Shown one piece after another: positions 565 to 63,717 of a stretch of DNA of 64,000 bases. The translations under genes were made by a program, and so were the position numbers. The notes beneath the pieces are model-generated. The model made no database searches. It saw only the letters and a program-made list of their open reading frames with translations, and was not told the DNA's origin. Numbering within the stretch: position 1 is the first letter of the stretch; every line of letters begins with the position of its first letter. The stretch covers positions 1-64,000 of the forward strand of contig NBIV01000205.1 of the NCBI GenBank assembly GCA_003194525.1. The letters are read 5' to 3'. This stretch comes from Gracilariopsis chorda (Eukaryota > Rhodophyta > Florideophyceae > Gracilariales > Gracilariaceae).

Positions 565-1387
565 TGTGGTGCAATGCCCCAAAGGGGAAAAACACCGAAA
601 GACGTTCGGGATCTTCCTCTCACGAGGTGAACCCAGTTGGGTAGAGCCCTCCCAGAGGTGTCACGGCGAAGCCGGTTTGTAAGACCAGGGACACCTGTCG
701 CGACTCGCGCAGGGAGGTGAAGGCGAAGAATCGGTATCCGCGTGAGCGGGGTGTGATCCTCAGTAGAGGTATGTTTCCACGTAAGTGGGGGTGTGTGAGC
801 GGATGCGCACACGAGGGCCGCGGATAGCGGGAGGTGCTACCCTAAAAAGGGGAAAAAGCAAGGGCGAAGAGGAGGAAGAGAGGGCGAAGTGAGTCGCGAG
901 AGCGACGGGGACGAACGGCGATGCCGGTAACAATATCCCTATACAGGGCGAAACACCAATGCAATTGGAACAATTATACTCCCAGTGATGGGTCCCTTTA
1001 GATGTGCAAGGGGGTTAGATGTCCCGTGGTTCACGGCGTTTCCCTCCAAGATAAGTAGAGCACGCGCGCAAGCGGCAACAACTAGAGCCAATTCCCCAGG
1101 TTGGGGTCCCTTGTTGGGGAAGGTTTACTGGTGCGACGGCAGTGCGCCGTCGCACTAAGTACTAGCTTTCCCAGAAATGGGTGTGAAAATAATAAATAAT
1201 ATTAACTAAAATACTCCACATTTCGTGGCAACACCCACTACTGTGGCCAACCGCCAATTGACCCAAAACCGTGTCCCACGTGTCCATACCCACCATTGTG
1301 GGGCGTAGTTCATATACACTACACAACCGATAATATCGGGAAAACGATCAAGTACCAAGAATCCCTCCCTGAGGGCGTTGCACTTCA
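565..1387 (-). repeat. 3' LTR of element 1
   Basis: This 823-bp LTR has TG...CA ends with imperfect terminal inverted repeats (TGTGGTGCAA and TTGCACTTCA). It is nearly identical to 11293-12117 and related to the solo LTRs at 60516-61342 and 62890-63717. At least 27 perfect hairpins with stems of 4 or more bp and loops of 5 nt or fewer can be listed in it. The longest is a 10-bp stem at 1131-1140/1146-1155. Confidence 0.95.
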
Positions 1388-1398
1388 TATCCCCCCCC
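1388..1398 (-). other. Polypurine tract of element 1
   Basis: On the minus strand a run of eight G followed by ATA lies directly against the 3' LTR. This is the expected position and composition for the plus-strand primer of an LTR retrotransposon. Confidence 0.8.
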
Positions 1399-1443
1399 TA
1401 AGACGGGAAAACGACCGTGGACGCGGAGGATTCCCAGACGAAA

Positions 1444-3045
1444 ATGGGTGATAAAAGCGCGTGCTCTGTCTCCGGTTCTCCGGTAAATCCCTCTGCACCA
1501 GAGTCATCGAGCGCACAAACAACAACAACAACCACCCTCGAAAAGGAAGAAATGAACAACGACAACAACATCAACAACCACAGCCAACCTCCGAGACTTC
1601 TCGGGCGATACACCACCGGTTTCCGGTCAGTTCCCCTGCCTCAGGGCGATCGACATCCGGTACAACCGGGGAATATGGCTGCTGCAGCCGACAATCCCTT
1701 CGCAGTACCACCTTCGGTGGTGTCCTCCGGAACCACTCCGGTGTCCAACTGGCCAACCTACAACACCCTGGGGCTCAACCCGATGAATCGGAATCACGCG
1801 TCGCGCCTGCGCCTTGCCCCGTGGTTCCACCCGGTCGCTGTCCTCAATGAGGGATTGGTCACCGCTTATGCGGATGGCTCAGACACCCTTCCGGGGGATC
1901 TGCCCAGAGCAGTCACCACATCGTGGGATTGGCGTCACCGGATTGCGATTCCGCGTTACCACCTCCGAAAGAAATTCGGGCGAGACCGTCGCTGCGGCAC
2001 AGACCGCGTTGACGCGCATGGCGTATCAACGGCAGAGCCAGGCTCCATTCGATGTGCCGGTCCCACCGGAGTTTGGCTTCGACGTTAGCTACTTCCGCAC
2101 TCGCGGGGAGATTGGGTACGGCGAGAATTTGTTCCGCCTCGAGACCCTCGCTTGGAGGAATTTCCCCGCAGCGCGGCAAGAAGCCCTTTGCTGGGAGCGA
2201 CCGATTATTCGGGCGGAGTTCAGGTACCTTCCCCGGCAATACCGGTCCAACTTTCTCCAAAATTCATACGCTACGAGCGGCGTTGGCGATCCCGATTCGG
2301 GTATTTTATGCCGTATCAGAACGTGGAGATAGAGCGGATTGCGCCGCCTCACTGACTAGGTCGGTATGTAGCACTCCCCGAGTGGTGGCGCTTCCATGAA
2401 GCCTGCCGGGGGTGCTACATAGAACTCCCGTCGGTACTTACGTACCTCGGTTCGCTGCTCATGCAGGATCCCCGGTCGGGGTTGTGGTCCGTAGTGGTTA
2501 CGGAGTGGGCGGCCCGCAGTGCGGCTTATATCCTCAACGAGGCGTACGACCAGTATCTTCTCTGGTTCCTTCAACCGCGTGTGCGGGCAGCGATCCGAAA
2601 CCTGGATCTTCGCATTCCCCTTGGGGGCCAGGCCAAAAATGAAGAGGTCCTCCAATTACTTGGGTACATCGACAGCGTTAGCTGGAGTGAGGTCCCGCTG
2701 GAGCAAAGTGGTCGTCTGGATGGCGGCAGCGGTAACACCGGTGGTCCGGGACTCGGTAGAAACACCGCCCTTGTGGGGAATTTTATCTACTTCGACCCCT
2801 GGGAGTTCCGGGAAATTTCCTCCGAGGAGGCGCGCGAGCTTCGCGATACGCCCCGGCATGTGCCGGAAGACCACCCGGTGGGGTACGTCGATTCTGACGA
2901 CTACTACCGCGCATACGGCGGGGATGACCCAATGGTCGATAACGAACCGGAAGAACCCGGGGAGATGGACGTAGAGGAAACCGGCGCTAGCGCGGAAAGC
3001 TTTCCCAGAGGGGTATCTCCGGCCGAGCCGGCTGCTGACCCTTAG
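1444..3045 (+). pseudogene. Antisense ORF carried by element 1, unknown function
   Basis: A plus-strand coding region lies between the 3' LTR and the end of Pol, convergent with Pol. The first in-frame ATG is at 1444. The frame is open to 2088, shifts to another frame (open to 2332) somewhere around 1920-1980, then returns to the first frame, where a TGA at 2353-2355 interrupts it. It stays open to 3045. Together it would encode about 530 residues: a Ser/Thr/Asn-rich N-terminus, a middle rich in Trp, Tyr and Arg, and an acidic C-terminus. I recognise no domain. Long protein-like sequence in one orientation suggests a real gene that has decayed. It could be an accessory gene or a captured host gene. 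Confidence 0.5.
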
Positions 3046-3395
3046 GCGGCAAGTGCCGGACCTTCTATCCCCAGCGGGGGTGACGGCGAATGAAAACGAG
3101 ATCATCGCACGTTTTCTCCGGGGTGCCGGTCCTAGCGCTGCCGAGGTATCGGGGGATTTCACCACCATGGCAGACGCGTTGGCCTACCGCCTTGCTGGGG
3201 GTTTACGCCCCGGACGATGGGGGTGAGTGAAACCTCTAGTCCAGTTTCCTGGTTCTTCTTTCCCTGGCTATGCCAGTTAGTGTAGTGTAGTATTGTGGGG
3301 AGCTAGCTGCTCCCTTGAATAAACTTTCCCGTTTTAGAACGGTGCTTCTCGTTTGAGTTCCCCGTCTTCGACGGACCTTGCCTTGTTATCCTTTC
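3046..3395. other. Non-coding spacer between antisense ORF and Pol of element 1
   Basis: This 350-bp stretch separates the convergent antisense ORF and the Pol frame. No ORF is supported. Both units probably terminate here, but no termination signal was identified. Confidence 0.4.
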
Positions 3396-6300
3396 CTATC
3401 GCTCTTCCGCTCGCGCGGCAACGTTACCCAACTTGGGCATTAACCAGCGTGGCTGGGGCTGCAGTTCCCGTTTGACGGTGGTATTGCAGGACCTGCGACC
3501 GTGGAGGTGTTCAATTGGCTCCCACGTATCCCCACTGGGGTCATACCCGTACCAGCGGACGCGGTATTGTAGAATACCATCCTGATCCCAGGTGTGTCCG
3601 ACAAGTCGGTCTACTACGAACTCTCGTTCGTAGACCTGCCAGCCGTGCCGGGTGGTGGTTGTACTTCCTTGCGGGGGCTGCCCGCTGTGCGGTATAATGT
3701 CCCTTAGCAGGGTGTTCGGCGATAACTCCGGCGTTGCCGTGCGATGTGATAGCGGCCGCTGCTCATGCGGGAAGATATCCCTCAAAAGGGTGTGTGGTGC
3801 CACGGTTTTCACCGGCAAGTCATTCCCATTGGGGTAGGTTCATTTCCGCTTTCGCCGTAATGCGGGCGGACCGCCATTCGGCGGGGGACTTGGGCTCCGC
3901 CTTCGCGGTTGAGCTCACGAACCGCGAGTTTGCGGGAAGATGACCGCTCCTGCGGGGTCGGCATTTCCACAATCCCCTGGGGGTCCCGTGCGACACGGTG
4001 ATTGGGTGGCAAACCGCCTTCCTGCCAGGCGCAAGAGCGCTCTGCACCATACGATGCCGTGGTGTCCCCGGCTACTGACGGGTTTCCTGGGGCTAACTCC
4101 GGTACGACCGGTTTTGAGCGTTCGATAGCGCGCGTTATTTCCCGAGTTCCTCGGTTCTTCGCCGCAGCGTTGCGGGGGTTGGCGCAAATTATTCCCCGTA
4201 GCGGGGGCTTCGATTTCCGTCAACGACGGGGGGCGTTTCCGGTGCTGGCGAGCCAGGGCTTAAAGCTTCGACTGCGGCTTGGCTGCCTTTTTCCCCAAGA
4301 GGGGTGTGGGTATTTCCCTGTGAGGCCGGCCTATCTGGGCGCCCCTTCTACGCAAGGCGCGGGTCTGATCGACCTGATTGAACCGCTTCTGCGGGGACTT
4401 CTGCCAACGGCGGCTTCGAGGCATCGCCCTGCTCAGGGGATTGGGGGCAATCGTCACCATACTCCCTTATCGGGGATCCTTCCCTGACAGGGGTGTGCGG
4501 TAGTTGCGCTTCAACTTCCCGTGTAGCACGGTATGTTTTCCGCGTTTGTGGCGATGCCTTCGGGGATGGATCGGGCGATTGCCTTTCCGCTGCTGCGGTA
4601 TTGGAGGGAGGCTTCTCGTTTTCCCGTGACAAACGGTGTATTTGCCGCTTTTGCGGGGCCTGCGCGTCTGGTTCCTGTTGCACAGCACTGCCGGGAACGG
4701 GGGATTAGTGTCGCGTGACATACTCCGTGCTCCACGGTCAGTGTTCCGTATGTTACGGTGTGTTTCCCGTTGCGACGGCGATATCGTTCCTCGAAAACGA
4801 GTGTTCTCCTCCTCCTTAGACGGAGCGGCGGGATAAGGGATAACATTCCCCGCCTGGCGGGTATAGATGCGCGCCAGTGGGGCAGACGTGGTAGGGGCGG
4901 GCGCTGAGGGGCCCGAATTACCCGGCTGAGCCGGTGGGTCCGACAGAGTCGGTAGGTCTGAGAGTCCCCGGCTGGGGTTTGGTAGTACCGTAGGTCTAGT
5001 ACTCCCGGATGGTTCCGGTGTTGCAGAGTCCATAGAAACGGGGTTGCCTGGATCCAGGACTACCTCTGACGAGGGAGAAGGGGCAAGGACAACACGATCA
5101 GGGGAAATCCGTTCGTGCGTGTCGCCCATCTCTACCACGACAGTGTCGGTGTTAACAGAGATGACCTTGAATGGTCCATCCGCCACAGGCGAAAGTTTAT
5201 GGCGCTTCTCCCGTTCCGGGTTGTAGTACTCCTTCCTTATGAAGATGTAGTTATTCGCCCGAATCGGGGACGGTTTCCCTCGCAAGCGAGCATCAAAATC
5301 CCGCTTGTAAGCGGCTTGGGCCCGTGCCATAGACTTCCGCGCAGCGGGGACCAGCTTGGAAAGCCATTGCTTCCATTGCTGCCGGTAGATACCCACAGAT
5401 GGGAAATTGTCCAAGGTAGCTTGGGGTTCCAGCGCCACAGGCGGGGGTGTTCTAGATAGAACCAACTCGAATGGCGAAACTCCGGTAGTCCGGTGTACCT
5501 GCGTATTGTACGCGTAGGTTACCGCATCAGCGTAGAGATCCCAATTCGTTGGGTGGTCAGCAACGTAGGAACGTAACGCCGCGAGTAACGTCCGGTTAAA
5601 CCGTTCAACTTGCCCATTACACTGGGGGTGGTAGGTAGTCGTGAACACGTTCTTGACATCCAGAATGCGACAAACATCCTGGAAGAACTTGCTCACGAAC
5701 TGCTTCCCGTTATCGGAGAGCACCTCCACAGGGGGACCGTAGACAAAAATCCAGTGCGTCACCAGAGCCTGGGCCACCGTGAGAGCGGTTATCCTCCGAA
5801 GAGGGACAGTCCGTACCAGCTTAGAAAAGCGGTCGATGATGACAAGTAGAAACTTGTTTCCACGTTTTGTGGTGAGTAGTGGTCCGAGAAGATCAATTGC
5901 GATAAACTCGAGTGGCGCCCTTGCGTGGAATAGTTTCATCTTCTTCGCATTTTTGCGGAGCTTGACGCGATTCTTCGCGCATTCGCTACAAAACCGCACA
6001 GTTGCGTAGCAATCCACCGCCATTGCGGGCCAATAGAAATCCCTTCGCAGGGTTAGGTAGAGTTTCCTCCCACCTGGGTGACCTCCAATGGGGGCGTAGT
6101 GTGATAGATGTAACACCCGCGATTGCAGGGAATGTGGTACCACAATCTGTGGGCGGGCTTCGACCTTCCTTACGAGGTAGCCTTTGTCGTTTACCCCGAA
6201 AGGGAGATCTTCACCACCGTTGATACGGGCACGAATTCTCGTACAGAATGGGTCGCCGAATTGTTCTCGGATCATTTCTTCCGGTGATACCGGTACAAAG

Positions 6301-8996
6301 TTTCCCGGTAACGGGTTCTCAGATTTATCTCGCGATGCGAGTAGTTCGTCAAAATCAGCATCCTCGTCCCAGGTTTCTGGCCTCGCTTCGACGGCATATT
6401 CCGGATCATCCGGGTCTATAGCCATGAAACATGGGACTTCATCATCCTCCGTTGGGAGTGCTTCCCCACTTGTGGGCAACCGTGACAAAGCGTCGGCCTG
6501 GGTGTTCTGCGCGCCCTTTTTTTAAATGACTTGAAAGTCATATTCCGTGAGGCGGAGTCTCCAGCGCATGAGGCGTCCCGACGGGTCGGAGATATTCATC
6601 AACCACCTCAATGAGGAATGATCCGTGTACACGGTGAAGTGAATTCCCATAAGGTAGGGGCGCAGAGTGGTCATCGCCCATACGACGGCGAGGCACTCTT
6701 TCTCCTATACGGAGTAGTTCCGCTCATGAACATTGAGCGAGCGCGACCAATAACCAATTGGATGTCGTTCCCCCTGGGGGGTGGTTTGAAAAAGAGCACA
6801 CCCGACTTGGTAGTCGCTCGAGTCTGTATCTACAGAGTATGGCAACCCAAGTTTTGGGAGATGTAGGATTGGTGCTGATGTGACAGCCTCCTTCAAGGAG
6901 TTAAAAGCTTCCGATTGCTCGGGCATAAATGTTCCCAGTTTTGGGGGGTTCCCCTTTCGCAACAACGCGTTCAGGGGCGCCGCAGTATCCGAAAAGTTCG
7001 GGATAAACCGTCGATAGACGTTGACCAGCCCCAGAAAGGAGCGCAGTTCCGTTTGAGTACGGGGTTCTTTCGCCTCAACGAGGGATTTGACTCGAGCTTT
7101 CTCGATCGCTAACCGTCCAGGACGGATAATGTGACCCAGATACTTCACAGTATCTGTGAAAAACTCGCATTTCCTCAACTTGAGGGTGATTCCCGCATCA
7201 CGGAGTACGGTCAGCACGTCTCGGACGTGAGTGAGATGGTCGTCCAACGAGTTGGAGAAGATGATAATATCATCAAGGTAGACCAGACAACTCCGCCACT
7301 TAAAGCGGTTGAGTAGAATATCTACTGCACGCTGAAAGGTGGCGGGGGCGTTGGTTAACCCAAATGGCATCCGCTTGAAGCGGTACGTTACTGCATGGCA
7401 GGTGAATGCGGTTTTGTCGCGATCCTCCTGTCTGACAGGTACTTGCCAATATCCCCAATTGGCATCAAGGGCCGTGAACACGGTGGCGTCTCCAAGGGAG
7501 TCAATGCACTCGTCCATACGAGGGATAGGGTACGTGTCCCTAACAGTCACGGCATTGAGCCGGCGGTAGTCGACACAGAACCTCCAGGTTCCGTCGGCCT
7601 TTAAAGCCAGTACAACTGGGGATGCCCAGGGTGATTGAGCGGGCTCAATCACACCTGCGCGGAGCATCTTGTCCACTTGGGACTGCTCCTCTTCCCGAGC
7701 TTTCGGACCTGCCCTGTAAGGGGGTTGTGCAACCGGTCGCGCACCGGGGATTAAATCGATCCGGTGTTCCGTTGCATTAATCTCGCCAAGCGAGCCATCC
7801 CACATTGTGGTGAATTCCCGTAACATAGTACGGAGTTTGTCGCGGTGCGACTCTGGCACATGGCTGAAGTCCAGCGCTTCAAGTGCTTTTTCCGGATCAA
7901 TCCGGTCGTTGCTCGATGGAGCATTGTCCTGTGGAACAGGTGTGGTTCGCAATTCCGAGTTACTCGGTATGTTCGACGCTGAAGTAGCGGTTTCCTCCCC
8001 CTCCTTAGACTTGACGTCTTCGGACGGCGGGGCGAACTCCTCAGAAGAGGTGGTAACTCCGAGTACATCGGCGGCTGTCATCTTCGTTGGCAGCATTCCC
8101 ATAGGATTGGGGGTTACACTCCCAATTACTTGGTGTTTTACCAGATACTGGGGGTGTTTGCCAAGGTTGGCAACCAATATCCGGAAAGGAACATCCGGGG
8201 AAATGGAGACAATTCCATTAGCCAGCGGCAGCTGGGATTTCTCGTACAACGAGACGAGGGGTTGTATAACCCGAAGACCGTGTTGACGGGAATTTACCTG
8301 CACCCAGACTTGGGACTCAGGTGGTATAGAAACCGAGGCAGCGACGCGGAGCTTGGTGGACTCGCGGGACGCGGGCGGTGGTTCCTGCGCAGCAGGGAGC
8401 GGAACTTGTTTCCGAGAGGACCGCTTTAGCGGGCGGCGAACAATCAGAACCGACGATCCGTCGTCAAGTTCTACACGCCTGAGGCGGGGCCTGATTGCGT
8501 CGACAAATCTGTCGCAGTAATCACATCCCAGTATGACTGGTGCGGCCAATGAACGGCAAACGATGAAGTCCAACTTCACCACAGAGGTACCAAGTCTCAC
8601 GACGAGGTCCACTGTGCCCACCGTTTGTAACGGATTGTTGTTCGCATCCGAAATGTCGGGGACCGCGTCAGAGCGGATACGAGACCGCACAAGCGGGGGT
8701 AACAATGATTCCACAACAAAGTTGGGGCCTGCACCTGTATCCAGGACGGTGAGAAACCTCACCATAAACTGGTGGTCAAGGCCAAGGTCGGCATAGACCT
8801 TATAGTTGCGCTTGGCCAAGACCAAGACTCTACCGGGAATCCGGGGATTTTTACTCCGTATCCACGGGCGACGCAACACACCGAGGTGCGCAGAGTCCGC
8901 GTCAGCGGTGTCTTTCCTCGAGAGGACTTTCACCGGGGAGCGAGGCGAGGACGCCTCGGGCGCCAACAGCCTCGTTCTTGAGGACGCCTCTCCCAA
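3396..8996 (-). pseudogene. pol: Element 1 Pol: protease-RT-RNase H-integrase-chromodomain, with in-frame stops
   Basis: One minus-strand frame runs from the ATG at 8996 to a TAG at 3396-3398 without frameshift, interrupted by stops at 6705-6707 (TAG), 6522-6524 (TAA), 4467-4469, 4260-4262 and 3915-3917, with a further break just upstream of 3818. Domains in order are: aspartic protease (DTG at residues 86-88, ILGCDY later); reverse transcriptase with the YLDD catalytic box near residue 570; RNase H (VDTDSSD, then TDHSSLR after the first stop); integrase with an HHCC zinc finger, the D-D-E triad (AIDLLG, SDNGKQF, GQVERF) and a GPY/F-type module (DGPFKV); a long repeat-rich linker; and a chromodomain at 3500-3640. 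Chromodomain plus GPY/F places it among chromoviruses of the Ty3 group. The stops make this copy defective unless suppressed. Confidence 0.93.
3497..3635 (-). other. Chromodomain at the C-terminus of element 1 Pol
   Basis: The segment begins YEREFVVDRLVGH and continues with QYRVRWYGYDPSGDTWEP. These are the conserved strands and aromatic-cage residues of a chromodomain. In chromoviruses this module follows the integrase and steers integration to particular chromatin. Upstream of it the motif TLLRDI-F/I-PH occurs twice about 30 residues apart. Confidence 0.85.
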
Positions 8997-9013
8997 AGGG
9001 GAGACTCCCTCAG

Positions 9014-11187
9014 TTAGTTTTCCGCCTTCGGCGGTGGGTTGGTTTCCTCGACAACGAGTGCTTCATCCCGTTGACGGGGGTTTCTATCCACATAAGCGGG
9101 GGTTGCAACGGATGGTTGCGTGATCTCCCGAATCGGGGTGTATGAAGCTTGCCGCGCACGCGGGATCTGTGGTAGGGCATGGGAAAAGTCCGTTTTAGCA
9201 CGGAGGTAGGAAGCCGTCGGGACGGAACGTCTCTCCTCTGGAGTGAGGGCCTCATAATTTGCCACCACCTTGGCCATATCCTTCAGTGAACAAATACACT
9301 GAGGTGAGGTATGGCCATGGGCATAACACAGGTGGCAAATGAGAGCCAATACCGCGACACGCGGATTATTATTCCGAGTATCGGAGAAGCGAACCGCAGG
9401 GCGGGTGTCAGTCCATCCAGGCCGTTGATAACGGGATTGACGGTTTGAAAACGGGAGTCGTTGGGGTTGAACCCGACTGTTACCACCGTACAAAACGGGG
9501 TCTTCCGTTCCCGTATCACGGGTCATCTCCGTCGTTGACGGTAAATCACTGGTGGGTATCGACACACCATCCTCCTGCACCAAATGCACGGTATCAACTC
9601 CCTGTCCAGGGTTCCCATCCGCGGTGAGCGGGAGTGAGGAAGCTTCGCTTTCCAGCAACAACGCCTTGGCGGATTTAGACCGATTGTTCGGAGTTCTTGC
9701 ACGAAGTGCATCCCCTTCCGCTCGGGCGTGTTGGACCAGCTCGAGGTAGGTGATCCTCCGCTTGTCCTCCCGATAACGGGTAACTAAACTCCGGATTGCC
9801 GGGTCAAGACCATCAATGAACATGGTACTGCGCTCCCCAGCGGGGTATACGTTACCACATCTGTGGAAAGCCTTGTTAAGGCGCACCGAGTAATCGGTCT
9901 CGGTCTCTCCAGCACGCTGGCGTGTATCTCGCAAAGCGAGGATAGCCTGCTGAATAGCGGTGTTGGTGGCGTAGGAGCGCAGAAGATACTGCACAGCCTC
10001 CGGCCAGCAAGTAACTCCTCCCTCGGAGGCACGAGAAGATCCTCTGACAGAGTTGTATTGGTCCTCCGCCATTCCCCGTAAGAAATACGGTAAAGCCAAA
10101 TAGGCTTGTCCCTCATTCATACCGAGGATATCGGCCTCCGCTACAAAGCGGGATAGGAAATCCAGTACTAGGACTGGGTCCTCTCTAGTGAAATACTGGT
10201 TGCGGAGCGAGAGCTGCATTCGCTTAATGCATTCTCGCACCTTTCCCGTACCACGGGGCGTACGTCCAAGTGACGAATCTTCGAGCCGGTGCTACCGGTA
10301 TGATAAAAGCTTCCGGTAATCTGGGTTTGTCGGTTTCAATTCCCGGAGACCGGGGTGTCTTCTCCCCTTCTGGCGGGTTCGGACCACACCTTCAGTGGCC
10401 GATGACCGCTTCGAGCGGGAGGAGTAGCCTCGCTTCTCGTCCTCCGAGTCGGAGTCCGAGGAGCTCGAGCTAACCGAATGGTTTCGGGATGAGTCCGACG
10501 ATGTCGAAGAATCGGAGTCCGAATATTTTCGGTGGTGTTTCCGTCGATGACGGCGTTTCTTCTTCCCAGCAAGCTGGTCGTTGTGCGATGCCTCGTTTAC
10601 CGGATCATCCGGGGATGGTTTGTCCATGAGGACGAACTGCTCCAGCGTCTCCAGGCGGGCACCAATCCAATCAAATCGGGCTTCAACTCCTTCGATGAAG
10701 GTGGCGGGTTGTCCCAAACTCTCCAACACGGAGTTGACGTCAGACCGCATAATACGGAGTTCCTCGGCGACCTGCTTTACGGGGGTTGCCAAGACCACCT
10801 CTTGGAGGGATTTTAGTTCCCCTACAAGGGTGTCATGGGCAGTCCACAGAGCGCAGACCTGGGATTCCAGGGAAGTCCCCTGGGGTTGTTATCGCCCGTT
10901 CCACGGGGGCTTGAAGCCGCGACAGCGAGAGCAGGCCGGGGTGTCTGGGGCACTGCGGCAACAGCCGGAGTCGATGCTGCATTCCCCTGCGGGGGTGATA
11001 ACGAGGGCAAAAGGAGGTTCCGGGGTTCCCGGTCGGGGGTATCATTCCGCGATGAGGCGGCGCCAGTACGGCTGGAACTTGTCCGTATAGGGATACGGGG
11101 TACGAACCGAACTTCAGAAGTGTCCGCGTTGTCGCGGGAGCGACTACGCGTAACCACTGGCTCCGCATCGGAGGGATTTCTCGACAT
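9014..11187 (-). pseudogene. gag: Element 1 Gag, frameshifted and with one stop
   Basis: The first ATG after the primer binding site is at 11187 and opens a Ser/Arg/Pro-rich N-terminus. A frameshift near 10830-10880 moves to the frame that continues to 9014, broken once by a TAG at 10292-10294. After a Ser/Asp- and Lys/Arg-rich linker there is a retrotransposon capsid-like region (GMAEDQYNSVRG ... YSVRLNKAF ... FIDGLDPAIRS). A single CCHC zinc knuckle (CHLCYAHGHTSPQC) lies near the C-terminus. Pol starts 17 bp downstream in another frame. The TAG lies in the loop of a perfect 5-bp hairpin. Confidence 0.85.
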
Positions 11188-11271
11188 GAGAAAATACCGT
11201 TACGACGGGAAACGATCACGGAACTTCCGGTAAATAAAAACAAACCTCGTAAGAGGGAAAACAAAAACCGA

Positions 11272-11289
11272 TTCTAGGTCGGGAGACCA
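11272..11289 (-). other. Putative tRNA primer binding site of element 1
   Basis: Three bases inside the 5' LTR the minus strand reads TGGTCTCCCGACCTAGAA. This would pair with a tRNA whose 3' end is ...TCGGGAGACCA and whose T-loop side resembles TTCTAG. The TGG start and the position fit a primer binding site. The tRNA identity is not established. Confidence 0.7.
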
Positions 11290-11292
11290 CTT

Positions 11293-12117
11293 TGTGGTGC
11301 AATGCCCCAAAGGGGAAAAACACCGAAAGACGTTCGGGATCTTCCTCTAACGAGGTGAACCCAGTTGGGTAGAGCCCTCCCAGAGGTGTCACGGCGAAGC
11401 CGGTTTGTAAGACCAGGGACACCTGTCGCGACTCGCGCAGGGAGGTGAAGGCGAAGAATCGGTATCCGCGTGAGCGGGGTGTGATCCTCAGTAGAGGTAT
11501 GTTTCCACGTAAGTGGGGGTGTGTGAGCGGATGCGTACACGAGGGCCGCGGATAGCGGGAGGTGCTACCCTAAAAAGGGGAAAAAGCAAGGGCGAAGAGG
11601 AGGAAGAGAGGGCGAAGTGAGTCGCGAGAGCGACGGGGACGAACGGCGATGCCGGTAGCAATATCCCTATACAGGGCGAAACACCAATGCAATTGGAACA
11701 ATTATACTCCCAGTGATGGGTCCCTTTAGATGTGCAAGGGGGTTAGATGTCCCGTGGTTCACGGCGTTTCCCTCCAAAGATAAGTAGAGCACGCGCGCAA
11801 GCGGCAACAACTAGAGCCAATTCCCCAGGTTGGGGTCCCTTGTTGGGGAAGGGTTACTGGTGCGACGGCAGTGCGCCGTCGCACTAAGTATTAGCTTCCC
11901 AGAAATGGGTGTGAAAATAATAAATAATATTAACTAAAATACTCCACATTTCGTGGCAACACCCACTACTGTGGCCAACCGCCAATTGACCCAAAACCGT
12001 GTCCCACGTGTCCATACCCACCATTGTGGGGCATAGTTCATACACACACTACACAACCGATAATATCGGGAAAGCGTTCAAGTGCCCAGAATCCCTCCCT
12101 GAGGGCGTTGCACTTCA
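11293..12117 (-). repeat. 5' LTR of element 1
   Basis: This 825-bp direct repeat of 565-1387 has the same TG...CA ends. The target duplication ATATC follows directly at 12118-12122. Confidence 0.95.
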
Positions 12118-13592
12118 ATATCAAACAGTGACCCGTCGGCATTGTCGATTATGAAATTGTGCAGCTTTACTGCCACCAAAATTATAAGTGTAGACTTTGC
12201 AATGGGATACCGTAGTGCCGACCAAAATATTCCAAAGCGAGAAACTAACATGCCGAATGCTTGCTCGGCACAAATCCAACAAGAAGAATGATAATAATTG
12301 AATGCATCTTGCTTTCCAGTTAGTCCTTTACCAGAGTATAGCGTTAGAAGTCTTCCATCATTAGAGTACGCATCTTCTGCGACCACGGTGGCCCAGAGCG
12401 GAAGAAAATCATCTTTCAACAAGTCGTAAAGTCTTATTGCAGCCAAATAAGTCGAATCGTGCTTACCCTCGCGTGCAGAGTGGATATAAATGAAAACTTG
12501 TAGTTTTCTTCTACTGCTGCTTGCACAACGATGGCAAAGAATCCCTTTCTGTTATAGTACTTTTTTGGATATGCAGCATCCGAGATTGCAAGCAGATATA
12601 TCTCGATCGCAATACCATCCAGAGCTGCTACTATACCATCAAACGGAAATTTTCGTAGTTGTTGAAACTGCTTTGTGCTTACAAAACATTCTCTTTCGGT
12701 AGATGGAAAGTGCAAACCTGGAAGTACTCTATTCAAAGCACACAAAGTTTCCTCAAATACACGATAAACAGTAGAAACGGCAATCCTGTACGGAAAATAC
12801 AGATCCAGATAACTAGCTCCGGCTAGTAGTCGTAGTGTCACGAACAGCATCACAGCCGGTGAAACGGCACTTGCAACAGCTGAATCTGATCTTTGAATGC
12901 GTTTGAGTGTTTGGTACAAAGCAGAGTGTAGAAGAAAAAATTGCGCCTTCGTCAGTCGATACATGCGAGCAAAGAGTGCATTAGATATGTTACTTATCTG
13001 TCTTTGGTAATCAAACGTAGGTGGTGGCAGAATAGATTTTGTGTTACGCAGCATTTTGTTGGAGAGTGCAATCGCAAGAACGATGTTTAAAATGTGGAGA
13101 GCTACTCGATGAAGCCATTGTTGGCGATTCCTTTGTAACGGCGATTTGCGTAAGCAGGACACCTGCAAAGCTTTGACAGCGTCTTGGACTCGGCGGTCAA
13201 ACATAGGGTCTACAAAGCATGGACTCGAACGAGGCATATCCAGGGTTGACGGCACCCTTGCTTTCCAGACTGAGAGAACGCTTTTATTCTTGGAAACTTT
13301 GAAAAAAAGTTGCCAAAATTTTCTTTCCATCATCAGCGTTAACTCGTACAACGCCCGTAACTGCGCTCGTTACTGAGTTGAAGAAGCGCAGTGTGCTACC
13401 CTGCCACCCTTCCTTTCACGTATTGTCACAGGAAGGAAGAGGCCGGTGGCTTTATTCAGCTTTCGCGGAGTGTACCAAGGCTATGGAGCATCTGTAGCGA
13501 CTGGAGCTCTGCTTTCGGATCTGTTGTATTCCACTAAATACAGTTGGAGTGCTGGAACTGGAACGGGATTCTCTTGCCATATCATTTGCAGT

Positions 13593-15698
13593 ATGAAGTA
13601 CGTGAATGTTCAATACAACTCTATAACTGCACGTGTGTACGACCCATCTGCGGACCCATCAGGTTCGGCAGAAAGGAAATATGCTTTAGTTTTCCATGGG
13701 TGGATGGGGCACCGAGAAGATCTGCGATTCCTTGCTGAGCCGTTCGCAGATCTGGGATACACCATAATAGTTCCAGACTTACCATACCATGGTGATTCAA
13801 TGAACGCGAAGGTGTCCTCCTGTTTTGATGCAGCAAAGCTGTTGTCAGACTCGTTGCCTGGCCTGCTTGGGGAATATAGACAATCCTTGTATCGCGTACT
13901 GATAGTGGGGTACTCAATGGGTGGTCGCATAGCTTTCGAACTGGCAGTTGCGGCCGAGAAAGGTGATATTACATCCTTGCAAGTGGATGCATTGGTTCTT
14001 ATTAGTTCGGCCGGACCCCCTTCCAGCGAGAATGAGAGGGGTAACTGTCGCCAAACTTCACAGCTGCGGTCTCAAAAGCTACTTGACAAATGCTTCACGA
14101 GCTCTGAGTATGAGGAATGGCTTAGGTGTTCTTGGTATTCTGCCGCGTTGTGGGGTAAGATTCGCGAAAAACCATTCTTCGACCAGCTAGTACATGACAG
14201 AGTGAGAAGTTTCAATGAGCAGTCACGTTATGGTTGGGCAAGAGCCGCCGTTCATATGTGTCGTTCTACTATGACTTGTCCACCAGAGCCCATCGAGAGT
14301 CCCGTGCTCTACTTTTTCGGAACAGAAGACCGAAAGTACCAGCAGATGGCTTCAGAACTACAGCAGCACTGTTTAGAGCTTCAGTGTGTTCCAGTTGAGG
14401 GCGCTGGTCACAACATACATCTCGAGTTTTCCCACGCGCTGATATCTCAAATCAAAGGTTTTGTGAAAGATATATGTAAGCCATCACTGAAGAATCCTTG
14501 CTTCATTTCTGATGTAAGATATACCACTTATTCGCTTCCTCTAAAGCGAAGCATGACTGTTGGAGGGCAATATATTTCAAAAAGAGAAGGGATAATAGTC
14601 GCTCTCCACTCAAACAACGGCAAGTTCGGCATCGGAGACATATGTCCACTTCCTGGCCTACATAGGGAAACATTGGACGTATGTATAAATGACATTTGCA
14701 AACTAAAGTCCCAAATACTTGATAGAAATCAGCTCTTGCAAACTGGTTCACTTCAAGACGCGTTCATCTTCATGGACTATATCGAGCAGTTTAGTCCGGT
14801 ATCGAGAAATGGACTCGAAGCGGCTTACATTCATTTGTTAAGTCATTTACGAGACCAGGCAATTTCATCCTGCCTGTGTTCTCTTGCGACGAAATATCTC
14901 GCCAAAGAAGAACTTTTCCCATTAAAAGCAGTAAGTATGAATGGAGTACTGCCAAGATCAGCCCCAGTCGAGAACCCGCAAAGCAGTACTGCCTCAGAAA
15001 ACCAATACCGTGAATCGGTGACAAACTCTTCGTTCAAGGTCATGAAACTTAAAGTTGGGGCCTGTGATGACGTCATTGTCGATGCCGAGCATGTTCGCCA
15101 TGCTGCTTTCGCAGCCAAAAAGCTACATAAACGCATTAGACTTGATGCTAACAGGGCATGGACAAAAACACAGTACGAACAATTCCAAAACGCTTTGGTC
15201 GATTATGTAGACCATATCGAGTTCATCGAAGAGCCATTGAAGACATCTGAGTTCTTGAGTGAGTACCTTTCATCAAACAAGAGAGCGCCGGGGAAAATGT
15301 GCATAGCACTGGATGAGGCAATCCATGACAGTACCTTTGAAAGGATTGCTGAACTCGCCTCGAGTACATTGTGTTGCGCTTTTGTCCTCAAACCATCTGT
15401 TATTGGTTCATTACGTTGTCTCTTACTATTATGGTCTATCGCTCAGAAGAATGGATGTGAAGTCGTGCTCAGTACCGTGTTTGATAGCGGTGTGGGAACA
15501 GCATGGACTGCAATACTAGCCGGTGTCTTGGGAAGCAGAGAGCAGCACCACGGCTTAGGAACCTTCAGTCATTTCTTGAGCGACGTCTTCACCCCTTCAT
15601 TCGGTGAGTGCTGCGCCGAGCATGGGGATCAGGTCTCGGTATTTGCATGCGAGAAATACCTTCTCTCGGTGTCCAACAAATTGTTCGATAGTCGATAG
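13593..15698 (+). CDS. MenH-MenC fusion: SHCHC synthase + o-succinylbenzoate synthase
   Basis: This bifunctional enzyme covers two steps of phylloquinone/menaquinone synthesis. The N-terminal half is an alpha/beta hydrolase of the MenH type (HGWMGHREDL, nucleophile Ser108 in GYSMGG, Asp in GTEDRK, His273 in GAGHN). The C-terminal half is an enolase-superfamily MenC with KLK near 485-487, LDANRAW, EEPL, ALDEAI and the second catalytic Lys in VLKPS near 600. All expected catalytic residues are present. The first ATG is at 13593; the frame is open for 49 more codons upstream without an ATG, so a targeting peptide from an upstream exon is possible. In plant PHYLLO the order is MenF-MenD-MenC-MenH; here MenH precedes MenC and no MenF or MenD lies upstream. 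The domain assignment is firm; the localisation is inferred. Confidence 0.9.
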   Translation: MKYVNVQYNSITARVYDPSADPSGSAERKYALVFHGWMGHREDLRFLAEPFADLGYTIIVPDLPYHGDSMNAKVSSCFDAAKLLSDSLPGLLGEYRQSLYRVLIVGYSMGGRIAFELAVAAEKGDITSLQVDALVLISSAGPPSSENERGNCRQTSQLRSQKLLDKCFTSSEYEEWLRCSWYSAALWGKIREKPFFDQLVHDRVRSFNEQSRYGWARAAVHMCRSTMTCPPEPIESPVLYFFGTEDRKYQQMASELQQHCLELQCVPVEGAGHNIHLEFSHALISQIKGFVKDICKPSLKNPCFISDVRYTTYSLPLKRSMTVGGQYISKREGIIVALHSNNGKFGIGDICPLPGLHRETLDVCINDICKLKSQILDRNQLLQTGSLQDAFIFMDYIEQFSPVSRNGLEAAYIHLLSHLRDQAISSCLCSLATKYLAKEELFPLKAVSMNGVLPRSAPVENPQSSTASENQYRESVTNSSFKVMKLKVGACDDVIVDAEHVRHAAFAAKKLHKRIRLDANRAWTKTQYEQFQNALVDYVDHIEFIEEPLKTSEFLSEYLSSNKRAPGKMCIALDEAIHDSTFERIAELASSTLCCAFVLKPSVIGSLRCLLLLWSIAQKNGCEVVLSTVFDSGVGTAWTAILAGVLGSREQHHGLGTFSHFLSDVFTPSFGECCAEHGDQVSVFACEKYLLSVSNKLFDSR

Positions 15699-31978: not shown

Positions 31979-32322
31979 CTTTCCACGCGCAGGAGGAAGG
32001 TGTGGTACTCCGTTTCTGGATTTGACCCGCGTACGCTGCTCGCGTACTCCGCAAGCCGCCGGAAAAAGAGTTTAGCAGCAGGACCGGCGCCTCCGTGTAC
32101 GTCGAAACCAATAGGAGTGAAGCTAATTCCGTTTGTCGCGCACAAAGCGTCGTATTTCGTCCGTTTCTGGGCTTCCGCTCGTCTCGCGGCCCCTGCGGCT
32201 TCTTTTGACGCATACGTCAAGAAGGAGTATGACGTGCCATCAGAAAAACCGCCCAAAACATGGCCTTGCTCGTTCGAATCAGTCAGCGCAAGCATTTTGT
32301 GGCACAACTTGTGCTGTGCCAA

Positions 32323-32921
32323 ATCTTCTGTCTACCGGGTAGACTCTACCCTGCACATACGTGTAGACAGAAGATCTGGTGAACATGGCCAAGTACGTGT
32401 AGAAACCTGAAACTGACTTCTGTAACTGACATTACAACTGACGTGTGATGCTTATAAGAACTTTCAAAACCGACATAGAATTCAGTTTACGTGGAGTTGT
32501 CTGTTGCATAAGGGTTCCAGAAACCGAGAGCGTGACACCAAGCGATGCATTCGTAACGCCTCCTGTTGACCACTTTTTAAAGATGATGAGGCCAGATCTC
32601 CCATATCTATCATTTTGCATATCTCTTCGTGTGGCTGCGTTTTCCTCCAGCAAAAGAGTTGTTAGGTATCAAGGGTACCGTTGGTATTACCAACTTGCTA
32701 GTAATCCTAACCCTGGGTTGGGCAATTGTTGATCTTGAGCTTGTTCAATCGTTCCAATTACGTCCGTTGTTGAGAGCTGCCTCTGGTCGTCCGGAACGTG
32801 CACGGCGTAGATCGAACTGCGATAGCTGAACGTTGAAAGCAGGCTCTGAGAATCGTAGATACACTTATCTTTGTACTCCTTTCCTTTAGGCTAACGCAGC
32901 ACGAAATTGCTTTACTCTACG
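32323..32921. promoter_or_regulatory. Upstream region of the FAM210-like gene with TACC-N3-GGTA dyad
   Basis: No gene is seen. TACCGTTGGTA at 32676-32686 is followed by an overlapping TTGGTA-T-TACCAA palindrome, 236 bp upstream of the ATG at 32922. A separate GTCTACC-G-GGTAGAC palindrome lies near 32331-32345. The dyad recurs upstream of other host genes in the window. Confidence 0.4.
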
Positions 32922-33485
32922 ATGGGCACTGGACATGGTGTAAACGAGAAGGCTACAACGGTGGCTTTCATAACAAGCGGAGCGATAGCGCTCAAGAGCT
33001 CTAGCGGCATTTCTTCATTCACAACTGGGAGTTATGGTAGGCTGACTCGAGCCCGCGTGCCGAAGCCAAAGCGTGTGCGCGTATCGCTGGACTCTTGCAA
33101 GCCGTCCCACACACCCACCCGTATGGCTAACAGCAACTCCAAGCAACCAGATGCAAAGGAACTGGCAAAACTGTTTGGTTTTTCTTATCTTGGAACCTCA
33201 ATCGCCATGTCTATCGTTTCATATGCAGTGTTGTACGTAATGGTTGCTGTTGGTGTAGATGTACGTGCGCTGATGAACTCTCTCGGCAACTTTTTGGCGT
33301 CAACTCCACTCGGGAGACCATCTATCATTGACAACATCTCCGACACGGCGAGTACGGCTGCTTTGGCGTATATCGCACACAAGGCTATGAGCCCAATAAG
33401 ATTTCCGCTAACCGCAGCGGCAACTCCTGTAGTGGCCAGTTTCTTCTCCAAGAAGGGCTCCGATTCAGAAGAGAAGACTTCTTAA
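32922..33485 (+). CDS. FAM210/DUF1279 membrane protein, organelle-targeted
   Basis: The first true ATG is at 32922 and gives 187 residues. The N-terminal 65 residues are Ser/Thr/Arg/Lys-rich and look like a transit peptide. The DUF1279 domain follows (DAKELAKLFGFSYLGTSIAM, a hydrophobic segment about residues 95-118, then the GRPSIIDNISDTASTAALAYIAHK block). FAM210 proteins sit in mitochondrial or plastid membranes; their molecular role is poorly known. The C-terminus ends in a short Lys/Ser/Glu tail. Confidence 0.75.
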   Translation: MGTGHGVNEKATTVAFITSGAIALKSSSGISSFTTGSYGRLTRARVPKPKRVRVSLDSCKPSHTPTRMANSNSKQPDAKELAKLFGFSYLGTSIAMSIVSYAVLYVMVAVGVDVRALMNSLGNFLASTPLGRPSIIDNISDTASTAALAYIAHKAMSPIRFPLTAAATPVVASFFSKKGSDSEEKTS

Positions 33486-33651
33486 TCAACTGAATACCTT
33501 TCATTCTGCTTTAGTCTCAACATCACATAGAACTGTAAACGCATGCAACTCGAATCAATGAGGCCTAGTATATTTACGGTATTTCTTCATGAGCTAGTGA
33601 TACGCAGACTACACGTTCACAATCCGTTACAACTGTGGAAGAGCTTCTCGC

Positions 33652-34545
33652 TTACACGGGCTGTTCCACTTCTCCCGCCTCCTCAGCAAAACCTTCACTC
33701 TGGTCATCACTTGCGTCACTCGCACTCTCTCCTTCCGGTCCGGGTCCGGAAGAGACAGCTACGACCGCTGGGCGGATGAGCACGTCACCCAAGCAGTATC
33801 CTCTCTGGAACTGCTGACACACGACATCCTCGTTGAATTCCTCCGATTCTACCTTCTGGATTGCTTCATGTAATGACGGATCGAACGTCTCACCCACTGC
33901 ATCCATCGGTTCCACTTTAAGTTTCGTCAACGCATCCAGGAGCTGACGATTAATAGCTTGGTAGCTCGAAGAAATGGATTTTTCTCTTTCCGTTTCTGGT
34001 TGCACGGCCGCTATCGCTCGCTCAAAATTGTCCAGAACTTGTAAGATTTCCTTGCATACCTTTGCAGTAGACTTTGCACCCTGTTTTCTCAAATCTTCCA
34101 TGCTTCGCCTTCTGTAGTTTTCGAAGTCCGCAGCGAGGCGAACGTATTTCCCCTTCTCCTCTTTGACAGCGTCCTCGCCTTCTTCAATCGCAGCCTTCGC
34201 TTCATTAAGCTCTTTCTGTACGATTTCCAGCTTCTTCTTTAAGAAGGAAGGAGAGTTGAGTATGTCATCTGCTGTCACTTCTTGTAGAGAATCGGGTTCA
34301 GAATCAGAAGCGGTGTCTGGGGTTTGAGACTCAACCTCCAACTCAGGGGCTTCTTCAGGTTCGTTTGAAGGCGGGGGTGGTGCGCTTGGCCCAAGGGCGA
34401 CAATGCGAGCTCTGTTGCACCTCCTTCCAGACCTAACTGTACCTGATGGACGAAAAGCCGTCACAGCTATGCAAAACGCTGATGTGGATGATGACAATGT
34501 GCCCGCAGATGCTGCGAAGGCCAGTTTCGATGGAGTGCGCTCCAT
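33652..34545 (-). CDS. GRPE: GrpE nucleotide exchange factor, organellar
   Basis: The 297-residue protein has a transit-peptide-like N-terminus (first 50 residues, Ser/Ala/Arg-rich), an acidic linker, a long coiled coil (about residues 105-165) and the GrpE head (AADFENYRRRS, KVCKEILQVLDNFERAI, PSLHEAI, QQFQRGYCLGDVLIRPAVV). GrpE releases ADP from organellar Hsp70 (DnaK type). The C-terminal acidic extension is longer than usual. The targeting signal suggests plastid or mitochondrion; which one is not decidable here. Confidence 0.93.
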   Translation of the reverse strand: MERTPSKLAFAASAGTLSSSTSAFCIAVTAFRPSGTVRSGRRCNRARIVALGPSAPPPPSNEPEEAPELEVESQTPDTASDSEPDSLQEVTADDILNSPSFLKKKLEIVQKELNEAKAAIEEGEDAVKEEKGKYVRLAADFENYRRRSMEDLRKQGAKSTAKVCKEILQVLDNFERAIAAVQPETEREKSISSSYQAINRQLLDALTKLKVEPMDAVGETFDPSLHEAIQKVESEEFNEDVVCQQFQRGYCLGDVLIRPAVVAVSSGPGPEGESASDASDDQSEGFAEEAGEVEQPV

Positions 34546-56334: not shown

Positions 56335-56786
56335 TCTGTACACCAACAGGCGCAGCGCGTGTATCTGTGGCGAGGGGAGGCGGCGTTTCAAGTTAGCAGC
56401 GCCGTGTGATCAAGGTGGCGGCGTGTGTGGTGCACGACGTGGCGACTGAAATGGGCGCTTGGGCTTACCAGATTACGAAGCGCGAAGAGCGGAAATACCA
56501 TGTGAGGCGAGCGGGCACTGCAAACGGGGAGACAGGGAGTAGTGTGCTTTTCTGTTTATGGGGGGGGGGTGGGTTGGGCGGGTGTGAGACGGGGTCAAGC
56601 ACTGAAAAGTTGATAGGCGTGCCTAACGCGAACGCGACGGCAGCACCACGACAAGTGACGTTGCTGTGGTGACGACAAGCGCGCAATGGCGGCGCCAAGG
56701 CGCATGATTGATTGAGAGAGAAGAACGGGTTGTGATAACACAACTAAAATGGGTCCAAAAAAATTGACAAAAAAAGGTTAATTACA
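56335..56786. other. Intergenic region, ELMO and PCNA
   Basis: No gene is seen between the tandem minus-strand ELMO and PCNA genes. The ELMO promoter should lie here. A G9 run lies near 56560-56570. Confidence 0.4.
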
Positions 56787-62889: not shown

Positions 62890-63717
62890 TGTGGTGCAAT
62901 GCCCCAAAGGGGGAAAAACACCGAAAGACGTTCGGGATCTTCCTCTCACGAGGTGAACCCAGTTGGGTAGAGCCCTCCCAGAGGTGTCACGGCGAAGCCG
63001 GTTTGTAAGACCAGGGACACCTGTCGCGACTCGCGCAGGGAGGTGAAGGCGAAGAATCGGTATCCGCGTGAGCGGGGTGTGGTCCTCACTAGAGGTATCT
63101 TTCCACGTAAGTGGGGGTGTGTGAGCGGATGCGCACACGAGGGCCGCGGATAGCGGGAGGTGCTACCCTAAAAAGGGGTAAAAGGAAGGGCGAAGAGGAG
63201 AAAAAGAGGGCGAAGCGAGTCGCGAGAGCGACGAACAGATACGGCAATGCCGGTGGACAGGACTCCCTATATAGGGCGAAACACCAATATGATTGGAACA
63301 ATTATACTCCCAAGGATGGGCTTCTTTAGATGTGCAAGGGGGTTAGATGTCCCATGGTTTACGGCGTTTCCCTCCAAGGAGGAGTAGAGCACGCGCGCAA
63401 GCGGCAAAAACTAGAGCCAATTCCCCAGGTTGGGGTCCCTTGTTGGGGAAGGTTTACTGGTGCGACGGCAGTGCGCCGTCGCACTAAGTACTAGCTTCCC
63501 AGAAATGGGTGTGAAAATAATAAATAATATTAACTAAAATACTCCACATTTCGTGGCAGCATCCACTACTGTGTCCAACCGCCAATTGACCCAAAACCGT
63601 TTCCCACGTGTCCATATCCACCATAGTGGGGCGTAGTTCATATACACACTACACAACCGATAATATCGGGAAAGCGTTCAAGTACACAGAATCCCTCCCT
63701 GAGGGCGTTGCACTACA
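62890..63717 (+). repeat. Solo LTR of element 1 family, forward orientation
   Basis: An 828-bp LTR with TGTGGTGCAA ... CACTACA ends and a perfect 5-bp target duplication AGATG (62885-62889 and 63718-63722). Its hairpins match those of the element 1 LTRs with changes mostly in loops. Confidence 0.95.

Follow-up and report, generated by a model that had tools for sequence, protein, structure and literature searches.

A Ty3/gypsy chromovirus of Gracilariopsis chorda tiled with short capped hairpins that are probably maintained by selection

The locus described here raises a simple question: why is a retrotransposon filled from end to end, LTRs and genes alike, with short perfect hairpins? We analysed a window of 64,000 nucleotides from the red alga Gracilariopsis chorda, that is, the whole stretch of DNA under study. 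An earlier sequence-only reading of this window had noticed the hairpins and had offered two explanations: RNA structure selected along the entire genomic RNA, or template switching by a reverse transcriptase that keeps perfecting near-palindromes. The features of the element are listed below in window coordinates; the element's sense strand is the minus strand.

565..12117, genes on minus strand: Ty3/gypsy chromovirus, 11.5 kb, G. chorda contig NBIV01000205.1
565..1387, minus: 3' LTR, hairpin-tiled
1391..1398, minus: eight consecutive G (sense strand), adjoining the 3' LTR, read from the sequence
1402..3045, plus: antisense ORFs in several frames, hairpin-tiled
3396..3839, minus: chromodomain ORF, 3' of the integrase (PF00385, E 7.1e-11)
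4467..6521, minus: pol, integrase (H2C2 and rve)
6705..9062, minus: pol, RT and RNase H (RVT_1, RNase H)
9014..10291, minus: main part of gag; zinc-knuckle-like motif C-x2-C-x4-H-x4-C recognised by eye
10292..10888, minus: N-terminal part of gag; by eye, a basic, Ser/Arg-rich stretch
11293..12117, minus: 5' LTR, hairpin-tiled, 98% identical to the LTR at 565..1387
62891..63647, minus: another LTR copy from this family, with 94-96% identity in three matched blocks

The two flanking LTRs, the order of RT-RNase H before integrase, and the chromodomain after the integrase place the element among the chromoviruses; together with gag, these are the features that it shares with Ty3/gypsy chromoviruses. 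We take the run of eight G to be a candidate polypurine tract. In the window copy an in-frame stop lies between the two gag parts. For the main part of gag, PF03732 was present in some relatives, and a comparison of gag with 15 relatives revealed no special feature. No Pfam family reached its cut-off in the plus-strand ORFs at 1402..3045, and their region was found in only two other loci among eight LTR loci. Scans of viral contig and genome contig collections found no relatives.

The hairpins form an array over the whole element, of which two units serve as examples.

565..12117, unstranded: mini-hairpin array, 327 non-overlapping short perfect hairpins; 202 CC...GG-capped units of 11-14 nt
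1615..1627, unstranded: example hairpin, stem 5, loop 3
4099..4111, unstranded: example CC-capped 13-mer, stem 5, loop 3

The 327 predicted hairpins cover 36% of the element's bases, compared with 95 hairpins and 10% in shuffles. The typical unit is 11-14 nt long and has a 5'-CC...GG-3' cap, a stem of 4-5 bp and a loop of 3-4 nt of free sequence. CC...GG units occur at 10-21 per kb across the LTRs and genes of the element, at 0-3 per kb between 12 and 60 kb (a second gypsy element included), and at 3-13 per kb in the bins from 60001 onward. Perfect CC frames numbered 221 (15.2 expected), and the length of CC...GG frames peaked at 12-13 nt (196 vs about 87). Watson-Crick pairs immediately outside the stem were avoided (34/322 vs 129/531 control frames, p = 4e-7). 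Over 565-12117, stems of at least 5 bp with a loop of 3 were found 89 times (12.3 expected, z = 26), whereas the counts were 50 vs 34.8 for loops of 6-8 (z = 2.4) and 65 vs 74.3 for loops of 9-15. On a stricter loop count the excess for stems of at least 5 bp lay in loops 1-5 and was absent from loop 6 up; for stems of at least 4 bp a 1.4-fold excess remained at loops 6 and 8. No clear recognition motif was seen in the loops, and only the CC/GG base was common to the units.

Such hairpins might in principle arise by chance or reflect the base composition, the codon usage or the make-up of the proteins, and the element is indeed GC-richer than most of the 64-kb window. Dinucleotide and synonymous-codon shuffles nevertheless missed the observed counts by large factors. 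With 300 synonymous-codon shuffles each, counting stems of at least 5 bp with loop 3, we found 17 hairpins in RT (6705..9062) vs 2.5 in the shuffles, 9 vs 2.3 in INT (4467..6521) and 12 vs 1.2 in gag. The signal was absent from the Pol of the second gypsy element (3 vs 4.0) and from eIF3e (2 vs 1.15), as the sequence-only reading had remarked, and two further host genes showed no such excess (2 vs 1.6 and 2 vs 2.1); the fourth host gene tested, a condensin subunit gene at 36094-39852, had a mild one (9 vs 2.9). Hairpin density in the element was thus far above both kinds of shuffle, with the second element and three of the four host genes at control level, and the LTRs carried the same pattern as the genes. 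We concluded that the shuffles rule out chance and codon effects as the cause, an origin to which we give next to no credence. Synonymous-codon shuffles do not reproduce the hairpins, and the data also support the earlier suggestion that the stems are built through codon choice rather than insertion.

The individual repeats on which that reading was based are real: all 24 that it cited lie where it had placed them, each with a stem of 5 bp or longer. Their loops are not uniformly 3: the repeats at 1327-1339, 1677-1689, 6401-6413, 7371-7383 and 7427-7439 have a 6-bp stem and a loop of 1, and the loops of others measure 2, 4, 5 or 7. Its figure of at least 27 repeats in the LTR was borne out, with 39 stems of at least 4 bp and loops of 0-5 against 15.0 ± 3.9 in shuffles. 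For 1615-2069 the excess over chance held, but we counted five stems of at least 5 bp with loop 3 instead of six (0.5 in dinucleotide shuffles), and this stretch, which had been taken as coding DNA, lies outside gag-pol; its ORFs run in several frames on the plus strand while gag-pol is on the minus strand.

Six related families formed a gradient of 2.8-17.5 units per kb. Alignments held 28 of 30 loci for family A (without L028 and L035), 19 of 23 for C (without the short L054, L055, L059 and L066) and 7 of 7 for B; D, E and F were represented by one copy each. In between-family alignments A1 was copy L010, A2 was L011, B was L043 and C was L044, while in the composition, flank and pitch analyses A1 was the window copy. 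Hairpins gapped in the partner were omitted from the broken-hairpin and stem-versus-flank comparisons. Stems of CC hairpins diverged less than their flanks in 10 of 10 comparisons (p < 0.05 in seven) and less than their loops in 10 of 10 (p < 0.05 in only four). When all hairpins were taken, stems were again below flanks in 10 of 10 (p < 0.05 in only four), and the stem-versus-loop difference was slightly reversed in one comparison (C to A1). For the CC hairpins of family F against A1, differing sites amounted to 17/208 in stems, 89/379 in flanks and 23/60 in loops; 17 of these 22 hairpins were perfect in A1, compared with about 10% under a simple neutral estimate, (1 - divergence)^9, that leaves protein constraint out of account. 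Hairpin centres in common exceeded expectation between A1 and B (19 vs 5.0) and between A1 and C (17 vs 5.4), some of them with compensated arms. Near-fixed differences between A1 and A2 avoided stems and private substitutions did not (p = 0.003 with A2 as reference, p = 0.089 with A1); the pooled p of 0.0004 draws on the same differences from two references, is not independent and was not relied on. Turnover was nonetheless considerable, only 10 of 96 A1 hairpins being perfect in C, and synonymous sites in stems were only weakly slower than those outside (A1 vs A2 p = 0.028, F 0.12, D 0.33, B 0.11, C 0.026). The conservation of stems relative to flanks, the compensated arms and the retention above the neutral estimate support selection for hairpins, and we regard a selected array, whatever its role, as probable.

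The array could instead have a mutational origin, in which template switching or arm-templated correction during reverse transcription perfects near-palindromes that have no function. Excerpts of PMC8604942 and PMC8794818 document such template-switch hairpins and the homogenisation of inverted-repeat arms in yeast genes and RNA genes, and the likeness to the present units lies in perfect short inverted repeats within coding DNA. Strict Watson-Crick pairing and the nearly equal behaviour of the two strands, described below, would suit this origin, as would one loop inverted between A1 and A2/C with its arms kept. Private gains of CC units, 10 in all where 4.2 were expected, were also above chance in B (4 vs 0.6) and in C (4 vs 1.1) but not in A1 (0 vs 1.7), with 2 vs 0.9 in A2; private gains of any hairpin were at chance (39 vs 39.4). 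Hairpins broken in a relative differed in both arms at the chance rate: differences confined to one arm were found in 88 of 554, compared with 91.5 expected. This total over all 14 comparisons comprises 69/419 (65.4 expected) from nine of the 12 family comparisons, 14/109 (21.2) from the other three and 5/26 (4.9) from A1/A2, and reciprocal pairs share data. Unlike known template-switch hairpins, then, the array has no one-arm excess, and spacer inversions are rare. Among 796 differing loops, counted over ordered pairs of families that are not independent, only 7 were inverted; these came from three positions, one of them with arms kept, and a general scan gave 25 inverted segments vs 27 complement-only and 16 reverse-only controls. 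Unbiased correction should not, we infer, produce stems slower than flanks, and it does not predict the length limit, the CC caps or the pitch. With arm differences at the chance level and few inverted loops, selection is a better fit than template switching, which matches the data poorly; on these counts and the chance-level private hairpin gains we rejected it as the main cause, and a purely mutational origin seems unlikely to us. Clusters of A1/A2 differences resembled templated blocks, but all 25 sit in a segment with high divergence throughout (24.4% from column 4340 onward) and so do not point to multi-base events. A few of the private multi-base changes in single copies lay within hairpins, with no pattern by eye.

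Granting selection, on which molecule would it act? G-U pairs (44 vs 25.9 expected) were no better tolerated than A-C pairs (54 vs 29.6; p = 0.76), which is unlike ordinary selected RNA structure. G-U versions of the units would still fold as RNA, yet they gain no tolerance over A-C. The folding gain over shuffles was 3.65 and 3.61 on the two strands of A1; in A2, B, C and D the sense strand had a slight advantage of 0.4-0.8 kcal/mol per 120 nt, about 1-2 SD. Thus, the part of the earlier proposal that concerned selection is supported, but the RNA level is not established, given that G-U has no advantage over A-C and that the two strands hardly differ in folding gain.

One way to account for both observations is that both strands need hairpins, for example to slow sense/antisense or RNA/cDNA annealing, since only Watson-Crick pairs serve both; the existence of an antisense ORF region would agree with this. 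Some marks are nevertheless specific to the sense strand. In A1, an A follows GG in 101 of 221 units and a T precedes CC in 25, compared with 107 and 69 of 345 control frames (p = 0.0004), and spacers of 4-14 nt are A-rich on that strand (32% A, 24% T, 19% G). The matching test, in which A preceding CC was compared with T following GG, was not significant in A1 (p = 0.15), and the A mark after the unit was not seen in B and C. The antisense ORFs, moreover, lie in several frames in the window copy, and their region recurs in few loci. A need for hairpins on both strands appears improbable. Alternatively, single-stranded cDNA could be the selected molecule, its hairpins aiding strand transfer, protecting the cDNA or guiding its folding. 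Strict pairing with no benefit from G-U suits DNA better than RNA, but DNA-stable loop motifs were not enriched by eye among the loops, and the present data do not directly separate cDNA from RNA; we consider this account a shade more doubtful still.

The spacing of the units provided a further clue. A pitch near 20.5 nt was found in three families: A1 (z = 3.9 for hairpins, 4.3 for CC units), F (hairpins, 4.1) and D (CC units, 3.0). It was picked from a scan of 64 periods, and F, which has hairpins in common with A, is thus not a fully independent repeat; the pitch was absent in B and C. Its closeness to small-RNA length might suggest that hairpins shield the element by blocking small-RNA target sites. 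Long hairpin-free gaps, however, were roughly as common as in random placement (all hairpins; 60-99 nt 17 vs 19.5, at least 100 nt 2 vs 3.8), and gap lengths therefore lend an RNAi shield no support, leaving it very improbable.

Known systems resemble the array only in part. To our knowledge, no known Ty3/gypsy chromovirus family has its whole sequence tiled by capped mini-hairpins. Genome-scale ordered RNA structure of viruses offers a comparison, with folding energy beyond dinucleotide shuffles in both cases; the array differs in its uniform short unit, in showing no surplus of stems of 5 bp or longer once the loop reaches 6, in its nearly equal strands and in drawing no benefit from G-U. 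Ty3 RNA, in an excerpt of PMC11381356, is described as belonging to a mosaic pattern of structured and dynamic regions, with about 36% A, compared with 22% A on the sense strand of the present element. Dispersed packaging signals of RNA viruses, as presented in an excerpt of PMC6281560, are many stem-loops across genome and genes thought to contact coat protein, with MS2, parechovirus and hepatitis B as further cases in the excerpted material. The likeness lies in multiple stem-loops across the genome, 327 being predicted here. Dispersed signals, as far as those excerpts go, share a recognition motif (in the loop in hepatitis B), whereas in the array loops and inner stems are free, the CC/GG base is common, and hundreds of units follow a preferred pitch. 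Among the matches listed in the openly licensed PMC literature we found no paper on such a hairpin array, nor any on Gracilaria gypsy LTR retrotransposons or genome assembly.

Our preferred explanation is that selection keeps the whole chromovirus sequence as a dense array of tiny hairpins, which would act while the element is single-stranded, as genomic RNA, cDNA or both. As a best guess, the array may package or condense the single-stranded element: the units would most likely offer Gag a long series of repeated weak sites for binding or condensation within the particle, and the pitch may be the footprint of one Gag unit. Judged from sequence comparisons, we put the chance that the array of this lineage is selected and serves in packaging or condensation at about even. 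We suggest more tentatively, leaning slightly against it, that this is a distinct kind of genome architecture, in which mini-hairpins with strict Watson-Crick pairing form a lattice through LTRs and genes at a pitch of about 20.5 nt, built by stepwise selection as a scaffold for the particle or for replication of both strands.

Whatever the role, codon choice in gag-pol is visibly ruled by something besides protein. If the strict pairing reflects a need for folding on both strands, this would be a new constraint on the evolution of coding sequence. If the packaging or condensation lattice is true, the element would hold an unusually clear sequence record of Gag wrapping a retroelement genome, with unit and pitch readable from the DNA, and the related families at their different densities would show the trait under construction.

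We identified the element at 565-12117 as a Ty3/gypsy chromovirus with its genes on the minus strand. Its features were as follows.

565-1387 and 11293-12117: LTRs, 98% identical to each other
10888-9014, minus strand: gag
9062-6705, minus strand: RT-RNase H
6521-4467, minus strand: integrase
3839-3396, minus strand: chromodomain ORF

The window copy is broken, and some other genomic copies retain open frames of 1875-1885 aa across RT. The best named relatives of its RT and gag were from Agarophyton chilense, which points to a red algal host. An alignment of 16 gag sequences showed an exact zinc-knuckle-like motif in 14 (relatives P0128 and P0155 were short of two residues and had one extra, respectively); a basic Ser-rich stretch was also seen by eye in gag of relatives, and no feature was seen in this alignment that set apart the family densest in hairpins. 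The interval from the end of the chromodomain to the 3' LTR contains, antisense to gag-pol, plus-strand ORFs in differing frames (1402-3045; 228, 181 and 229 aa); a Pfam scan assigned them no family at its cut-off, and they are possibly a broken antisense gene. Farther along the window, 60001-64000 carries an ORF (61071-62399) with LTR sequence of the element's family around it, both direct and reversed, at a density of 3-13 hairpin units per kb; the direct LTR copy is at 62891-63647, and the reverse-oriented copy is suggested by a common translation.

A sequence-only reading had described the element as tiled with short perfect hairpins, and all 24 inverted repeats that it cited were present. 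The element contained 89 repeats with stems of at least 5 bp and 3-nt loops, versus 12.3 in dinucleotide shuffles. This excess for stems of at least 5 bp was confined to loops of 1-5 nt and absent from 6 nt upward; for stems of at least 4 bp, a 1.4-fold excess persisted at loops of 6 and 8 nt. The 327 non-overlapping hairpins occupied 36% of bases (shuffles: 95 and 10%). The coding-region signal held under the check which that reading had named, as synonymous shuffles did not match RT, integrase or gag, and the LTRs were likewise tiled though they do not code for gag-pol.

The commonest units were 11-14 nt long with loops of 3-4 nt: those of 11 or 12 nt had 4-bp stems, and those of 13 or 14 nt had 5-bp stems. 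Most began with CC (57/68 13-mers, 83/98 12-mers) and ended with GG (53/68 and 75/98); the inner positions were paired but free in sequence. Among lengths of 7-25 nt, CC...GG frames were over-represented at 9-15 nt, with the maximum at 12-13 nt (196 vs ~87). Pairs directly outside the stem were avoided across five families (34/322 vs 129/531 control frames, p = 4e-7), suggesting that long stems are unwanted. Below, perfect hairpins of 11-14 nt with CC...GG caps are called CC units.

CC units in A1, the subfamily of the window element, also had preferred spacings. Gaps of 0-3 nt were never seen (about 15 expected; minimum separation 4 nt), gaps of 7-8 nt were favoured (18 vs 7.5), and long hairpin-free gaps were about as frequent as under random placement. 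The local spectrum of the window element peaked at 20.5 nt both in hairpins (z = 3.9) and in CC units (z = 4.3). Related family F gave z = 4.1 at 20.5 nt for hairpins and 2.8 at 20.0 nt for CC units, and family D peaked near 21 nt (CC units, z = 3.0; hairpins, 2.3 at 21.5 nt). Families B and C had no local peak near 20.5 nt; C peaked instead at 29 nt (z = 3.3).

CC-unit densities per kb were 17.5 in A1, 16.1 in sister subfamily A2, 12.4 in F, 10.6 in B, 7.2 in D, 5.5 in C and 2.8 in E, where D, E and F are each represented by the RT region of a single copy. DNA identity between families was 58-78%, the A1/A2 pair excepted. Two host blocks had 0.7 and 0.4 per kb. The second gypsy element of the window, in whose Pol the sequence-only reading had seen no such tiling, had 0.2. 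These graded densities indicate that the trait belongs to this lineage and varies within it.

In host parts 32118-40117, 44118-48117 and 56118-60117, perfect inverted repeats with loops of 1 or 3 nt were mildly in excess. Many had stems of 6-9 bp and only 5/64 began with CC; their form seems closer to ordinary template-switch palindromes than to the element's units. These parts include the Cnd1 condensin subunit gene (36094-39852, minus strand), with 9 repeats of stem at least 5 bp and 3-nt loop versus 2.9 in codon shuffles (maximum 7, n = 300). Elsewhere in the window, alpha/beta hydrolase and MenC-like enolase domains are fused in a single long ORF (13377-15698, plus strand), an arrangement known from fused menaquinone/phylloquinone genes.

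One of two origins proposed in the sequence-only reading was template switching that keeps perfecting near-palindromes. This process (PMC8604942, PMC8794818) predicts arm homogenisation and spacer inversions. Neither exceeded chance here. Where a hairpin was broken in another family, one-arm changes numbered 88/554 versus 91.5 expected, so both arms differed as by chance (all 14 comparisons). Of 796 loops with at least two differing sites, counted over ordered pairs, 7 were inverted; these came from three positions, one with its arms kept, and a general scan found 25 inverted segments versus 27 and 16 in two controls. The 564 private substitutions created hairpins at the random rate (39 vs 39.4), but gained CC units more often than expected (10 vs 4.2), with the excess in B (4 vs 0.6) and C (4 vs 1.1); these gains favour a mutational source and count against selection.

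Most tests supported selection for hairpins. Using 14 copies each of A1 and A2, near-fixed differences avoided stems (stem/outside sites 62/194 with A1 as reference, 45/223 with A2), whereas private substitutions did not (62/134 and 34/75; contrast p = 0.089 and 0.003). In CC hairpins, stems diverged less than flanks in 10/10 comparisons (p < 0.05 in seven) and less than loops in 10/10 (p < 0.05 in four). The clearest case was F to A1, with changed sites at 17/208 in stems, 89/379 in flanks and 23/60 in loops. Perfect retention was 26/68 from A1 to F, 31/60 from F to A1 and 17/22 for F CC hairpins; a simple neutral estimate is about 10%. Hairpin centres coincided in A1-B (19 vs 5.0) and A1-C (17 vs 5.4), and one pair position was C-G in A, T-A in B and G-C in C. 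Over the 5.4 kb aligned for the A loci (L009-L038), A1/A2 differences were concentrated in the final ~1.1 kb, which is 24.4% diverged and holds all 25 clusters, a pattern that suggests recombination between element lineages.

Other results counted against selection. Taking all stem pairs together, compensated double changes showed only a small excess (A1 to F, 13 vs 7.6; A1 to D, 11 vs 11.1), and synonymous divergence was only weakly lower in stems than outside (p = 0.028 for A2, 0.12 for F, 0.33 for D, 0.11 for B, 0.026 for C). Between distant families, turnover affected most hairpins: from A1 to C, 10/96 were retained. Private substitutions broke somewhat fewer hairpins than random placement (all, 129 vs 148.5; CC units, 60 vs 73.2; mainly in A1); thus, stems are perhaps not fully neutral even in recent copies.

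Selection on RNA structure, the other earlier proposal, fared well as to selection; RNA is only one candidate for the molecule, given strict pairing and nearly equal strands. Units with one mismatch showed no G-U advantage (G-U 44 vs 25.9, A-C 54 vs 29.6, p = 0.76). At 37 C, units with one G-U pair still had a favourable computed RNA energy (mean -4.0 vs -5.3 kcal/mol). Stability therefore does not account for the strict pairing, which points to DNA, or both strands, as the acting molecule. Per 120 nt, the two strands of A1 had folding gains over shuffles of 3.65 and 3.61 kcal/mol; in A2, B, C and D the gain was slightly larger on the sense strand. On the A1 sense strand, A followed GG in 101/221 units and T preceded CC in 25 (controls: 107 and 69 of 345; p = 0.0004), while the mirror counts (A before CC 77, T after GG 51; controls 77 and 73) were not significant (p = 0.15). 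This A mark, which was absent in B and C, and the A1 spacers of 4-14 nt, rich in A and poor in G on the sense strand, point to that strand as the acting molecule.

Our search among openly licensed PMC papers, within the matches listed, found no report of such an array. Probing of Ty3 RNA is reported to show a mosaic structure (PMC11381356). Dispersed packaging signals act alike but share a recognition motif (PMC6281560). The array, its pitch, its conservation and its gradient within the lineage were observed here, and the explanation that we favour is a model of repeated sites in which each hairpin with its spacer would form one weak Gag site. The single-strand stage, Gag as partner and the benefit are parts that we infer. 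Under such a model, Gag on many weak sites would condense or package the single-stranded element, and the pitch would be the spacing of Gag units.
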